Position numbers and translations under genes: made by a program. 64,000 nt of DNA from Nevskia sp. (GTDB taxonomy: Bacteria > Pseudomonadota > Gammaproteobacteria > Nevskiales > Nevskiaceae): contig JADHNH010000004.1 in assembly GCA_016779605.1 (NCBI GenBank), forward strand, positions 1 to 64,000, written 5' to 3'. Positions 22,849 through 28,105 of the stretch are shown here, piece after piece. The notes under the pieces are model-generated. The model ran no database searches, was not told the DNA's origin, and was given only the letters and a program-made list of their open reading frames with translations. The stretch's first letter is position 1; each line of letters starts with the position of its first letter.

Positions 22849-22911
22849 GACGGAAGGTATCTACTGGATCTTGTGCGGCCGCCCACCCACCGTCAATCGC
22901 CGGCATCCGCT

Positions 22912-22917
22912 TACAAT
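22912..22917 (+). promoter_or_regulatory. Candidate -10 box giving a possibly leaderless mRNA
   Basis: TACAAT ends seven bases before the ATG at 22925, so the transcript would begin at or next to the start codon. No ribosome-binding site is visible in between. Confidence 0.35.
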
Positions 22918-22924
22918 TTCCGCA

Positions 22925-23560
22925 ATGACCGCCCAAGTCCCCGACGTCGTCGTCTACCGCGGCGCCACGGAATCGATTGCGGGCATCGCCGGCAGCGGCC
23001 TGTTCGACCCGCGCGGGCTGGGGCTGCCGCTGCAGGCGATCTCCAGCGCCTGCTGGCGCGGGTTCCACTGCGAATACGCGGTGGCGGACGGCGCCCTGTT
23101 CCTGCGCCGGCTCAACCTGGGCCTGAGCGACGAAGCCGTGGAGCGGATGGCGCAGGGCGCGACCGCGGCGCCGTTCGGGCGCCTGCCGCAACGCTACACC
23201 GAGCGCATCCGCGTGCTGCGCGGAGACGACTGGGTGGACGAGGACTGGCATTCGCCGGACTACCGCATCGACGGATTGCGCGAGCCGGTGGCGTTCAGCG
23301 GCGGGCTGCTGCTGGGCACCGATTTCATCGACGAGACCTACATCCACCTGGGTTTCCACGCGCCCTGTCAGTTCGGCACGGTGCACGAGCTGATCTTCGC
23401 CGCCGGCCGCCTGGTGGCCGAGCATGACCGCTCGCCGCAGATGAAAGACCTGCGCCGCTTCATGGAAAGGCGCCTGCAGTACGCCGGAGCGGCGGCCGGC
23501 GGCAAGCTGGCGGCGCGCCTGCGTGGCGTCTTCTCGCTCGAATACCGCCCGCCGGGCTGA
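22925..23560 (+). CDS. Hypothetical protein, 211 aa
   Basis: I do not recognise this protein. It has no signal peptide or membrane helix and contains a Trp/Tyr/Asp-rich middle (VLRGDDWVDEDWHSPDYRIDG). Its second half looks structured (FSGGLLLGTDFIDETYIHLGF, TVHELIFAAGRLVAEHDRS). A basic C-terminal tail follows. Coding character is good throughout. It follows the toxin gene by 77 bp with its own -10 candidate, and precedes a thiolase. No function is offered. Confidence 0.75.
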   Translation: MTAQVPDVVVYRGATESIAGIAGSGLFDPRGLGLPLQAISSACWRGFHCEYAVADGALFLRRLNLGLSDEAVERMAQGATAAPFGRLPQRYTERIRVLRGDDWVDEDWHSPDYRIDGLREPVAFSGGLLLGTDFIDETYIHLGFHAPCQFGTVHELIFAAGRLVAEHDRSPQMKDLRRFMERRLQYAGAAAGGKLAARLRGVFSLEYRPPG

Positions 23561-23650
23561 TCCGCCGGAACGGCACCGGGGAATGCCGGTGCAGACGCCA
23601 TCGCCGTTTTGCGCGACAATTGTGCAAGTCCACTGAATCCGGATTCACAA

Positions 23651-24847
23651 ATGTCCACGCAAACCTCGCAGGATCCCGTCGTCATCGCCGCCGTCGCGCG
23701 CACGCCCATGGGCGGCATGCTCGGCGTGCTGTCGCCCTTCGCCGCGCACCAGCTCGGCAGCGTGGCGATCAAGGCCGCGGTGCAGCGCGCCGGCATCCAG
23801 CCCGAGGATGTCGAGGAAGTCATCATGGGCAACGTGCTGATGGCCGGCCAGGGCCAGGCGCCGGCGCGCCAGGCGGCGCTCGGCGCCGGGCTGCCGCTGG
23901 GCGTGGGCTGCACCACCATCAACAAGATGTGCGGCAGCGGCCTGAAGGCGGTGATGCTGGCCAACGACCTGATGCGCGCCGGCACCAACCGCGTGATGGT
24001 CGCCGGCGGCATGGAAAGCATGACCAACGCCCCCTACCTGCTGGCCAAGGCGCGCGGCGGCTACCGCTATGGCCACGGCGAGCTGCTGGACCACATGGCG
24101 CTCGACGGCCTGGAAGACGCCTACGAGAAGCGCACCGCCATGGGCGTGTACGCCGAGCGCACCGCCGAGAAGTACGGCTTCAGCCGCGCGCAGCAGGACG
24201 AATTCGCCATCGCCTCGCTCGCGCGCGCGCAGAAAGCCGGCGCCGACGGCAGCTTCGCCTTCGAGATCACGCCGGTGGTGGCGCAGGGCAAGACCGGCAG
24301 CGAGGAAATCACGCGTGACGAGCAGCCGGCCAAGGGCAAGCCGGAAAAGATCCCCACGCTGAAGCCGGCGTTCAAGAAGGACGGCACGGTGACCGCCGCC
24401 AACTCCAGTTCGATCTCCGACGGCGCCGCCGCCATCGTGCTGATGCCGCAGAGCGAAGCTGCGCGGCGCGGCATCGCGCCGCTGGCGCGCATCCTTGGCC
24501 ATTCGCAGCATGCGCGCGCGCCGGGCGAGTTCACCGTGGCGCCGGTGCACGCCATCGCCAAGCTGCTCGACAAGCTCGGCTGGAAGGCCGCCGACGTGGA
24601 CCTGTGGGAAATCAACGAGGCCTTCGCCGTGGTGACCATGGCGGCGATGAAAGAGCACAAGCTGCCGCACGACCGCGTCAACATCCACGGCGGCGCCTGC
24701 GCGCTCGGCCACCCGATCGGCGCTTCCGGCGCGCGCATCCTGGCCACCCTGGTGGGCGGCTTGCGCAAGACCGGCGGCAGGAAGGGCATTGCCACCCTGT
24801 GCATCGGCGGCGGCGAGGCGGTGGCCCTGGCGATCGAAATGGCCTGA
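23651..24847 (+). CDS. Acetyl-CoA acetyltransferase (thiolase)
   Basis: Thiolase that condenses or cleaves acyl-CoA, probably acetoacetyl-CoA. The 398 residues are typical. The nucleophilic Cys lies in INKMCGSGLKAVM (about residue 95), the His in NIHGGACALGHPIGASGAR, and the second catalytic Cys in LCIGGGEA. AtoB/PhaA-type biosynthetic or degradative thiolases look alike, and neighbours do not decide between ketone-body, PHB and fatty-acid roles. Start at ATG 23651; no clear ribosome-binding site. Confidence 0.93.
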   Translation: MSTQTSQDPVVIAAVARTPMGGMLGVLSPFAAHQLGSVAIKAAVQRAGIQPEDVEEVIMGNVLMAGQGQAPARQAALGAGLPLGVGCTTINKMCGSGLKAVMLANDLMRAGTNRVMVAGGMESMTNAPYLLAKARGGYRYGHGELLDHMALDGLEDAYEKRTAMGVYAERTAEKYGFSRAQQDEFAIASLARAQKAGADGSFAFEITPVVAQGKTGSEEITRDEQPAKGKPEKIPTLKPAFKKDGTVTAANSSSISDGAAAIVLMPQSEAARRGIAPLARILGHSQHARAPGEFTVAPVHAIAKLLDKLGWKAADVDLWEINEAFAVVTMAAMKEHKLPHDRVNIHGGACALGHPIGASGARILATLVGGLRKTGGRKGIATLCIGGGEAVALAIEMA

Positions 24848-24879: not shown

Positions 24880-27396
24880 ATGAGCGCCGCCGGCTGGTGT
24901 AGATTGCCGGACGTGAACGATCCGCACGCCACCGGCCCGGCGCCCACTGCAGCCGCCGCGCAGCAGCTGCACGGCGCGGCAGCGCTGGACGCCGTCCTCG
25001 CCGGCCCGCCCGGCGAGCTGCAGATCGGCGTGACCGGCCACCTCCTGCTCAGCGGCGCCGAGGAGCACAACGTGGTGCGGCGGCTGCGCGGCGAAGTGCT
25101 GCCGCAGCTGCTGCCGCCGGGCTGGTCGCGGCCGGTATGCCTGCTGACCGGGCTGGCGCCGGGCTCCGACCTGCTGTTCACGCGCACCGCCAGCGCCTGG
25201 CTGGGCGAGCGCGGCATTCCGCACCGCGTCGTCGGCCTGCTGCCGGTGCCGCTGGACACCCTGCTGCAGGACTGGCTGGACAACCTTCGCGCCACCGGCG
25301 AGCAGGTGCCCGCTCCGCAGCTGCAGCAGCGCCGCGCCGAGATCGAAGACACCCTGGCCGGCTGCGCCGCCGTGGTGCAGCTCATGCCGGCGAGCGCCGG
25401 TGCCGCCGAGCTACGCTCCGACACGTTCCGCCAGCGCCAGTACCAGCAGCTCGGCGCCTGCCTGTCGCAGCGCTGCGAAGTGCTGGTGGCGATCCTGCGC
25501 GAGGACAACGCCGTGCGGCCCGGCGGCACCGCCGAGGTGGTGCACTGGCGGCGCAACCCGCAAAGCATGCCGCCGGAGTTGTCGACCACGCCGGATCCGC
25601 GTCGTCGCCTGATCGTGGTCGACCCCGCACGGGACGAGGCGGCTGCCGGTGGCAGCGCAGCCACGCCCGGCAGTGCCCCCGCCGGGCTGGCGCTGCGTGC
25701 GGAGGAAGCCCTGCGCGCCGGCAATTACGTGCTGTGCCACGACCTCGCCACGCGCGCCGCCCGCGCCGGCCAGCCGGGCTTACGTGATGGCCCGCGCCTG
25801 CAATACCTGTCGCTGCTGGCGCTGGCCAACGCCGGCAGCGCCGACCTCGCCTGGCGCCGCTACGGTGCGCTGGGCCTGTCCGAAGCCGAGCTCGACGAGG
25901 ACTGGCTGGCGCTGAAGGGCCGCCTGCTCAAGGATCGCGCGCTGGTGAGCGGCCAGCCATCCGATTTCGAGCAGGCGGCGCTGGCTTACCTGGCCGCCTA
26001 CGAGCGCACCGGCGGCCATTTCGCCGCGGTCAACGCCGCCAGCATGTTCGCGCTGGCGGGCGCCAGGACCCGCGCGCAGGCGCTGGCGCAGGAAGTGCTG
26101 CGCATCACCGGCGATGCGGCCGAGGCGGCGGTGGCGGACGAGCTCGGGCGCTATTACCTGGCGGCCAGCGCGGCCGAGGCCGCGCTGCTCGGCGGCGACA
26201 CCCAGCGCTGCCGGCTCAGCCTGCGCCGTGCCGACCGGCTGGAACCGGCCAACGCCAATGCGCGCAGCCGCACGCGGGCGCAGATCCGGCTGCTGTGCCG
26301 GCACCTGGGCATCGAGGACCGCTTTTCGGCGATGCTGCGGCTGCCGCCGCTGATGTACCTGGCGCGCAGCGCCGAGCAGCTCGCCGAGGTCGGCGCCACG
26401 GCCGCCACTCCGGACGGCGCCGAGCGCATCGATGCGCTGGATGCCCAGGTATTCGCGCCGCTGTTGCGGCCCGCCGACCTGCTGGCGGTCGAACACTTCC
26501 TGCGGCGCGGCGCACGCCTGCGCCTGGTGCTGCCGGCCAGCCCGGAGGCGGTCGCGGCGCGCTGGCAGCGCAGCTTCGGCGCCGACTGGGCCAACCGCCT
26601 GTCGGCTTGCCTGCAGCAAGTGAGCGAGCTGACCGCGCTGCAAGGCTTCCTGGAGCCCGAGCTGCAGTGGGCGGAGCGCTACGTCGCCGCCATCGCTGCC
26701 GGCCTGGCGCGGCTGGCCGCGCGGCAGCTCGGCGGCGCCTGCCGCCGCATCGAGGTGGCCGCCGCCGAGGCCGGCGGTGTGGCGCTGCGCGAAACCGACG
26801 ACGACGGCGGCATCCTGGCGCCGGCCCTGCACGCGGCGCCGGCGGCGCGCGAATTCGGCACCCAGCGGCGCTTCGTCGGCCTGCTGTTCGCCGACATCGC
26901 CGGCTTCCGCCGCCTGCCGGACGACGAGATGCCGCGCTTCTGGTCGCAGGTGATGGGCAGCGTGGCGCTGATCCTCGCCGCGCACGGCGACAAGGTGCTG
27001 TTCCGCCACACCTGGGGCGACGCCATCAACGTGGTCACGGAAGACGCGCGCACCGCCGCCGAGATCGCCCTGGCGCTGCGCGACTGCATCGACGAGGTGC
27101 GGCGCAGCGAGTCGGGCATGCTCGGCCGCATCGACCTGCGCATCGCCGCGCACTTCGCACCGGCCTACGCCGGCTTCGACCCGATCGAGAACGTGCCCAA
27201 TTATTACGGCTCGCAGCTCTCGCTGACCGCGCGGGTGGAGCCGGTGACGCCGCCGGGCATGATCTTCGTCACCGAGCCGTTCGCCGCCAGCCTGGCGCTG
27301 GAGGCGCCGGACCGCTTCGCGCTGCACTACGCCGGCGAAATCGAGCTGGCCAAGAATTTCGGCAAATACCGCCTGTTCAACCTGGCGCAGAATTAG
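24880..27396 (+). CDS. SLOG-like/TPR-S-like/nucleotidyl cyclase-like signalling protein
   Basis: The 838-residue protein appears to have three domains. Residues 47-240 resemble the SLOG nucleotide-sensing superfamily: IGVTGH (49-54), LLTGLAPGSDLLF and a late LPVPLDTLLQDW match its 'vsaLAeGaDr...LPlp..Yl.DF' pattern. Residues 270-475 resemble the TPR-S/DUF4071 repeat domain (AEEALRAGNYVLC, GGHFAAVNAASMFALAG, AASAAEAALLGGD). Residues 665-838 resemble a class III cyclase: metal Asp672 in LLFADIAGF, Asp714 in HTWGDAINV and Arg785 in SLTARVE. The usual transition-state Asn is Ser781, so activity may be altered. No membrane helix. An in-frame GTG at 24913 is an alternative start. Domain names come from pattern memory. 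The stop codon carries a MITE. Confidence 0.8.
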   Translation: MSAAGWCRLPDVNDPHATGPAPTAAAAQQLHGAAALDAVLAGPPGELQIGVTGHLLLSGAEEHNVVRRLRGEVLPQLLPPGWSRPVCLLTGLAPGSDLLFTRTASAWLGERGIPHRVVGLLPVPLDTLLQDWLDNLRATGEQVPAPQLQQRRAEIEDTLAGCAAVVQLMPASAGAAELRSDTFRQRQYQQLGACLSQRCEVLVAILREDNAVRPGGTAEVVHWRRNPQSMPPELSTTPDPRRRLIVVDPARDEAAAGGSAATPGSAPAGLALRAEEALRAGNYVLCHDLATRAARAGQPGLRDGPRLQYLSLLALANAGSADLAWRRYGALGLSEAELDEDWLALKGRLLKDRALVSGQPSDFEQAALAYLAAYERTGGHFAAVNAASMFALAGARTRAQALAQEVLRITGDAAEAAVADELGRYYLAASAAEAALLGGDTQRCRLSLRRADRLEPANANARSRTRAQIRLLCRHLGIEDRFSAMLRLPPLMYLARSAEQLAEVGATAATPDGAERIDALDAQVFAPLLRPADLLAVEHFLRRGARLRLVLPASPEAVAARWQRSFGADWANRLSACLQQVSELTALQGFLEPELQWAERYVAAIAAGLARLAARQLGGACRRIEVAAAEAGGVALRETDDDGGILAPALHAAPAAREFGTQRRFVGLLFADIAGFRRLPDDEMPRFWSQVMGSVALILAAHGDKVLFRHTWGDAINVVTEDARTAAEIALALRDCIDEVRRSESGMLGRIDLRIAAHFAPAYAGFDPIENVPNYYGSQLSLTARVEPVTPPGMIFVTEPFAASLALEAPDRFALHYAGEIELAKNFGKYRLFNLAQN

Positions 27397-27565: not shown

Positions 27566-28105
27566 ATGGGATTGGGCATCGCAGTTCTCACCGTTTCCGA
27601 CACGCGCACCCTGGACGACGACAAGTCGGGCAGCCTGCTGGCGCAACGCATCGGCGATTCCGGCCACCGCCTGGCGGCGCGCGAGATCGTCACCGACGAC
27701 CGCTACGTGGTGCGCGCGCGGATCAGCGCCTGGCTGGTGGACCCCGCGGTGGACGCCATCATCGTCACCGGCGGCACCGGCCTGACCGGCCGCGACCTGG
27801 TGCCGGAAGCGGTGCGGCCGCTGCTGGACCGGGTGACCGACGGCTTCGGCGAGCTGTTCCGCTGGCTGTCGTACCAGGACATCGGCACCTCGGCGATCCA
27901 GTCGCGCGCGCTGGCCGGCAGCGCCAACGGCCGGCTGGTGTTCTGCCTGCCCGGCTCGCGCGGCGCCTGCGAGCTGGGCTGGGACCAGATCATCGGCAAG
28001 CAGCTCGACGTCAATACGCGGCCGTGCAACCTCGCCGAGCTGCTGCCGCGCCTGCGCGAGCCGGCGGACCGGCCGGCGGTCAAGACCGAGTCGCGGCGGG
28101 ACTGA
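27566..28105 (+). CDS. moaB: Molybdenum cofactor biosynthesis protein B
   Basis: MoaB/Mog-family protein expected to adenylylate molybdopterin during molybdenum cofactor synthesis, or a non-catalytic MoaB. The 179 residues contain [28 protein letters not shown] (the MPT-binding loop) and [29 protein letters not shown] follows. Length and motifs match E. coli MoaB. No other moa/moe genes are nearby. It starts 25 bp downstream of the MITE, so its upstream region has been rearranged by the insertion. Confidence 0.93.

Follow-up and report, generated by a model that had tools for sequence, protein, structure and literature searches.

The window, a stretch of 64,000 nucleotides from Nevskia sp., contains a long gene whose product appears to join nucleotide-sensing domains to a nucleotidyl cyclase (Table 1), and the question raised by this locus is in which pathway such a protein works. 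An earlier note, made from the letters of this DNA, described a three-domain protein with an altered cyclase active site and supposed an undescribed module of nucleotide-based signaling or defense.

The Cyclase Gene and Its Relatives

The frame is open through 838 codons and is confirmed as a real gene by comparison of protein sequences, since the 37–61% identity kept by its homologues spans the full length or the part from TPR-S to cyclase. Homologues at this level of identity are present in 30 of the 58 family genomes and in 17 of the 18 genomes of the genus Nevskia, with conservation over the full length of the protein in Nevskia, Solimonas, and Hydrocarboniphaga. The start codon is uncertain because residues 1–40 vary among homologues and carry no conservation. 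An antisense reading of the ORF was rejected, as the opposite strand is long and open merely from high GC content and carries stops. The plain form of the family, a single chain of TPR-S, SLOG, and cyclase, is also present in other Pseudomonadota, in Actinomycetota, and on at least one contig labeled Acidobacteria. The proteins of two loci titled Rhodospirillales (L033) and Lysobacteraceae (L036) cluster with those of Nevskia, and these titles are probable mislabels.

Table 1. Features of the cyclase gene and its immediate neighbors, with positions in the window.
Feature	Position	Strand	Evidence or conservation
Thiolase gene	23609-24847		Upstream of the cyclase gene
Whole ORF, SLOG - TPR-S - degenerate SLOG - class III cyclase (predicted)	24880..27396	+	838 aa and stop
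N-terminal SLOG domain, YAcAr type, residues ~47-250	25018..25629	+	YAcAr matches in homologues, model, profile comparison
IGVTGH, first SLOG loop	25024..25041	+	Gly-His conserved in 27/27
LAPGSDLLF, glycine-rich SLOG loop	25153..25179	+	A93, P94, G95, D97 invariant
TPR-S repeats, residues 292-389	25753..26046	+	Pfam PF20308, E 2.3e-9
Degenerate second SLOG domain (predicted), residues ~487-640	26338..26799	+	Profile match to the middle SLOG kept intact in relatives
Class III nucleotidyl cyclase domain, residues 666-824	26875..27351	+	Pfam PF00211, solved-cyclase profiles
Asp672, first metal-binding Asp	26893..26895	+	80/80
His710, canonical base-selecting Lys/Glu position	27007..27009	+	Asn 42, His 14, Asp 9, Gln 8 of 80 in the family
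Trp712, two residues before second metal Asp	27013..27015	+	Trp in 79/80
Asp714, second metal-binding Asp	27019..27021	+	80/80
Ser781, canonical Asn position	27220..27222	+	Ser 54, Thr 13, Ala 6, Asn 6, Leu 1 in the family
Arg785, transition-state Arg	27232..27234	+	80/80
Lys825, candidate triphosphate-binding Lys	27352..27354	+	80/80
MoaB-like gene	27566-28105		Downstream of the cyclase gene

Domain Architecture

A Pfam scan of the N-terminal domain of the window copy gave no SLOG match; among 27 homologous N-termini, six matched YAcAr, a SLOG family related to YspA/cpYpsA (best E 1.5e-4). The predicted structure of this domain (pLDDT 91) matches DprA-like and YspA/cpYpsA SLOG proteins in a viral structure library (BFVD), with best probabilities of 0.99–1.00, and a fold search of the PDB yielded no significant match (TM about 0.2–0.3). 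By its modeled fold, the SLOG matches, and the conserved Gly-His and A-P-G-x-D loop, the domain fits the SLOG superfamily. The repeats of the middle part match TPR-S (PF20308) above the curated cut-off (38.2 vs. 27.6 bits), and this family was matched in 66 of 67 relatives. A second, sub-threshold TPR-S match is present in the window genome at G000:C161:7429-7716. At the C terminus, Guanylate_cyc (PF00211) is reached with 25.7 bits against a cut-off of 21.9 and is matched in 64 of 67 relatives, while profiles of solved cyclases match with E-values down to 8e-13. The SLOG, TPR-S, and cyclase domains named in the earlier note are thus all present, but the modules number four, not three: the region between TPR-S and cyclase, which it overlooked, appears to be a degenerate second SLOG.

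The 48 aligned relatives that fall outside the Nevskiales branch show, between TPR-S and cyclase, the pattern ..GH..GSLAxGADIL..AMG..LRA..AGT.., with the key Gly, His, and Asp kept in every one. The middle region of the window protein matches this intact domain in profile comparison (98.6%, E 5.6e-16), and the Nevskiales branch has lost the Gly-His pair and glycine loop in each of its 19 members, the window protein included. A model of the middle domain of relative L062 (pLDDT 93.6) matches ShosA, DprA, LOG, and a Moco carrier protein, all of them proteins of SLOG type. Since a Pfam scan of the intact middle domain reached no SLOG family, its assignment rests on structure and profile comparison, by which the predicted SLOG fold is clear in the relatives and the window copy is homologous to it, without the Gly-rich loop.

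The branch that lost the middle SLOG is the one that bears the N-terminal SLOG, and the sensor has therefore apparently been relocated from the middle to the N terminus. Separate acquisition of the N-terminal domain seems more likely than simple duplication, because the two domains match only partially in profile comparison (79%, E 1.6e-5, 77 columns) and the N-terminal one alone matches a Pfam family. At six loci of the Nevskiales branch the SLOG is encoded by a separate adjacent reading frame, and the tree requires several changes between fused and split forms in this branch; individual splits may be assembly errors.

Active Site of the Cyclase Domain

The profile matches and the two metal-binding Asp residues place the C-terminal domain among the class III cyclases. 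Alignment of 80 relatives agrees with the earlier note on the presence of Asp672, Asp714, and Arg785 and on Ser781 at the Asn site, and adds Arg754, His758, Glu787, Pro788, and Lys825 to the invariant residues. Lys825 is presumably the triphosphate-binding Lys, as we take from class III cyclases in general. The base-selecting positions are occupied by Asn, His, Asp, or Gln and by Thr, Asn, or Ser, a signature of neither adenylate (Lys/Asp) nor guanylate (Glu/Cys) cyclases, in line with the remark that the usual residues are not obvious. Altered base residues occur in some mycobacterial cyclases that are nonetheless active, and the base and Asn changes are therefore no proof of inactivity. Counting of residues would place Trp712, two ahead of the second metal Asp, at a position reported to determine pyrimidine selection in PycC (PMC11224242).

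The alteration seen at the Asn site is real, but it is no oddity of a single copy. Most members lack the Asn, and since the whole conserved family shares this trait and keeps its metal, Arg, and Lys residues invariant, the site looks like the mark of a subfamily and not like a defect of the window copy.

Linkage and Co-occurrence with TIR Proteins

TIR proteins are enzymes known from immunity. A search with an iterated TIR profile around 80 relative loci revealed them at 35, no more than 500 bp from the cyclase gene in 31 cases, and these neighbors are of many types and in varied orientations. Across 18 Nevskia genomes, each about 4 Mb in size, the background is about 1–3 TIR matches per genome; at this rate, which comes from one genus, chance adjacency would be expected at well under one locus in 80. 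Sphingomonads encode, upstream of the cyclase gene, a TIR protein with a coiled coil and a membrane segment; TIR-WD40 proteins occur in Solimonas, Hydrocarboniphaga, and actinobacteria, and TIR-TPR proteins in other relatives. The motif Ser-x-aromatic-or-similar-x-x-x-Glu is kept in 35 of 38 TIR matches, and we take its Glu to stand in the place of the catalytic Glu of NAD-cleaving TIRs. An even phylum sample of 397 genomes comprised 18 with a relative, the window genome included; one of the 17 other loci was left out as a probable repeat of L107, and a TIR gene lies within about 6 kb at 11 of the 16 further loci. At several of these loci a pNTSase1-like gene stands in between, and at some the cyclase part has decayed or is unrecognizable. 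Ordinary neighbors (ABC, MFS, DnaJ, cyclopropane synthase, and similar) surround roughly half of the related loci, and no shared neighbor partner was found for the relatives without a TIR gene.

TIR and cyclase genes are unlinked in the Nevskia clade. This holds for the window genome, where the TIR-WD40 protein (G000:C119:63262-66237) comprises a TIR domain, a hydrophobic segment, and then WD40 repeats. With a Solimonas TIR-WD40 protein as a query against the 58 family genomes, a homologue was found in 28 of 30 cyclase-bearing genomes vs. 3 of 28 others (Fisher p 8e-11, for genomes that are related to each other). Outside the genus Nevskia the proportions are 12/13 vs. 2/27, and permutation within genera gives p 0.0014. 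Two genomes, G021 and G055, have the cyclase without a TIR-WD40 homologue.

At loci L158–L162 the cyclase part is decayed or unrecognizable, with TIR and TPR-S-SLOG retained. The sequences favor TIR-SLOG as the core coupling of the family, because the TIR types vary (WD40, TPR, coiled-coil-membrane) around a constant TPR-S-SLOG part and because some operons keep both after cyclase decay or loss. The earlier guess of nucleotide-based signaling or defense gains strength from this linkage, which its author could not have seen. A small gene lies between the TIR and TPR-S-SLOG genes at L151, L152, L153, L158, L159, and L160; one copy matches pNTSase1 (PF20301) at the cut-off, and a profile built from the six pNTSase1-like genes found no further copy at other loci.

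Genomic Context

The thiolase and MoaB-like neighbors are shared by five to six Nevskia loci, according to clusters of homologous ORFs, and other housekeeping genes (SurE, LysM/M23 peptidase) are neighbors elsewhere. Upstream of the thiolase gene, the window contains a ParD/ParE toxin-antitoxin pair (PF03693, PF05016; 22103-22848, +) and a 229-aa ORF without Pfam match (22871-23560, +). Carriage by phages or plasmids was considered and rejected: a phage search found no copy of the cyclase gene, and the seven matches of a plasmid search are all partial. The stable position of the gene in Nevskia suggests a resident pathway, and a mobile defense island is disfavored because the gene is near-core in this genus and has housekeeping neighbors.

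Comparison with Known Systems

By analogy, the wiring of the family is nearest to Thoeris (ThsB TIR and ThsA SIR2-SLOG) and its parts are nearest to Pycsar (PycC and PycTIR/PycTM), its function being predicted. The likeness to Thoeris lies in the pairing of a TIR protein with a SLOG-bearing protein, and the model in which TIR-made cyclic ADP-ribose isomers are sensed by SLOG is borrowed from there. In contrast to ThsA, the window protein has a cyclase in place of the SIR2 NADase, with TPR-S in between, and the partner TIRs often bear WD40 or TPR repeats. NCBIfam and PADLOC scans gave no match for the window protein, neither to the PycC model nor to Thoeris, where the other cyclase proteins were also without PADLOC match; some partner TIRs have weak matches to ThsB models (E-values of about 5e-7 to 2e-4). 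With Pycsar it shares a class III cyclase that lacks the usual purine-selecting residues and is paired with TIR in many loci; it differs in being a long multidomain sensor-cyclase and in base-pocket residues unlike those reported for PycC (PMC11224242).

By the Pfam cut-off, the window protein is a member of the TPR-S systems (PF20308), and some relatives form an operon of TIR, pNTSase1-like (PF20301), and TPR-S-SLOG-cyclase genes, whereas the window protein has an extra N-terminal SLOG and no linked pNTSase. The class III adenylate/guanylate cyclases (e.g., PDB 3mr7, 3et6, 2w01) resemble it in fold and in metal, Arg, and Lys residues, and differ from it at the non-canonical base-selecting pair, the Asn site, and Trp712, near-invariant in the window family. 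Judged from these tests, the protein belongs to the SLOG, TPR-S, and class III cyclase families, and to neither Thoeris nor Pycsar. A literature search for the SLOG-TPR-S-cyclase combination found none, the founding papers on SLOG/TPR-S networks lying outside its reach. The earlier interpretation was right in its domains and residues, but the module that it supposed is not entirely undescribed: it lies outside the defense models searched, but TPR-S is already a curated Pfam family and the plain form exists elsewhere.

Proposed Function

In our preferred reading, held at slightly below even odds (about 0.47), the protein is a class III cyclase gated by SLOG and TPR-S, the Nevskiales version of a wider TIR-coupled TPR-S/SLOG/cyclase family, probably acting downstream of a TIR-made, NAD-derived signal. 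From the architecture and the TIR association we infer catalysis, the ligand, the product, the downstream receptor, and the direction and order of the relay as follows. A stress or infection cue would cause the TIR protein, here TIR-WD40, to cleave NAD and free an ADP-ribose-type nucleotide; this would be bound by the N-terminal SLOG, possibly also by TPR-S, allowing the C-terminal cyclase domains to dimerize. The dimer would then make, from its unusual base pocket, a cyclic mononucleotide that could act as a second messenger on a downstream receptor. Sensing of NAD-derived nucleotides by SLOG has a precedent in Thoeris (PMC9503650). Against this reading count the unlinked TIR gene of the Nevskia clade, the two cyclase-bearing genomes without its homologue, the ordinary neighbors at roughly half of the related loci, and the non-standard base and Asn positions, which may allow weak or no catalysis; an effector for the cyclic nucleotide was looked for, and none was found. 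A more specific version is possible but doubtful: two-messenger immunity, in which the NAD-derived messenger of TIR would pass through the SLOG receptor to a second, cyclic-nucleotide messenger made by a cyclase of unusual base specificity, and in one lineage the SLOG sensor would have shifted from mid-protein to the N terminus.

The same parts could work in the reverse, Pycsar-like order, with SLOG/TPR-S sensing the cue and the cyclase product triggering a TIR effector that destroys NAD. Cyclase and TIR are indeed the part types of Pycsar, the base pocket is compatible with a non-purine product, and the sphingomonad TIRs, read from their sequences, have the coiled-coil and membrane segments mentioned above. 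This order is nevertheless unlikely, given that a CRP-like cyclic-nucleotide-binding domain is part of PycTIR (PMC11224242), whereas none is among the Pfam matches listed for the partner TIRs scanned, with up to 25 families listed for the WD40-rich ones, that some operons retain TIR and TPR-S-SLOG without a working cyclase, and that PADLOC does not match the cyclase protein. The near-universal presence of the gene in Nevskia, its housekeeping neighbors, the missing phage copy, and the partial plasmid matches would also suit ordinary resident stress or metabolic signaling by a regulated cyclase that makes cAMP or cGMP and has no immune role. The probability of this explanation is low, since varied TIR proteins are linked to the cyclase gene closely and repeatedly and co-occur with it, and since the base signature is that of neither cyclase type.

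The cyclase domain might instead be a non-catalytic nucleotide-binding module, and the protein a receptor or scaffold for its TIR partner. Such a role would agree with the report of related conflict systems whose cyclase domains are inactive (PMC7159879), with the non-Asn site of most members, the base residues unlike known cyclases, and the cyclase decay in some relatives. It is rather improbable: the metal Asp pair, Arg785, and Lys825 are invariant across phyla, which is unexpected for a dead enzyme, and six members retain the Asn.

Known TIR-SLOG systems such as Thoeris finish in NAD destruction, and known cyclase-TIR systems such as Pycsar begin from the cyclase. If the preferred TIR-to-SLOG-to-cyclase order is true, a chain joining Thoeris-like and Pycsar-like halves would constitute a two-messenger relay in several bacterial phyla, with a cyclase product and a SLOG ligand that are directly testable. 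The apparent relocation of the sensor and the forms with a separate SLOG ORF in some Nevskiales offer a natural test of which SLOG senses. Overall, the window protein seems to be a relay, so far little studied, in a stress or defense pathway based on nucleotides.
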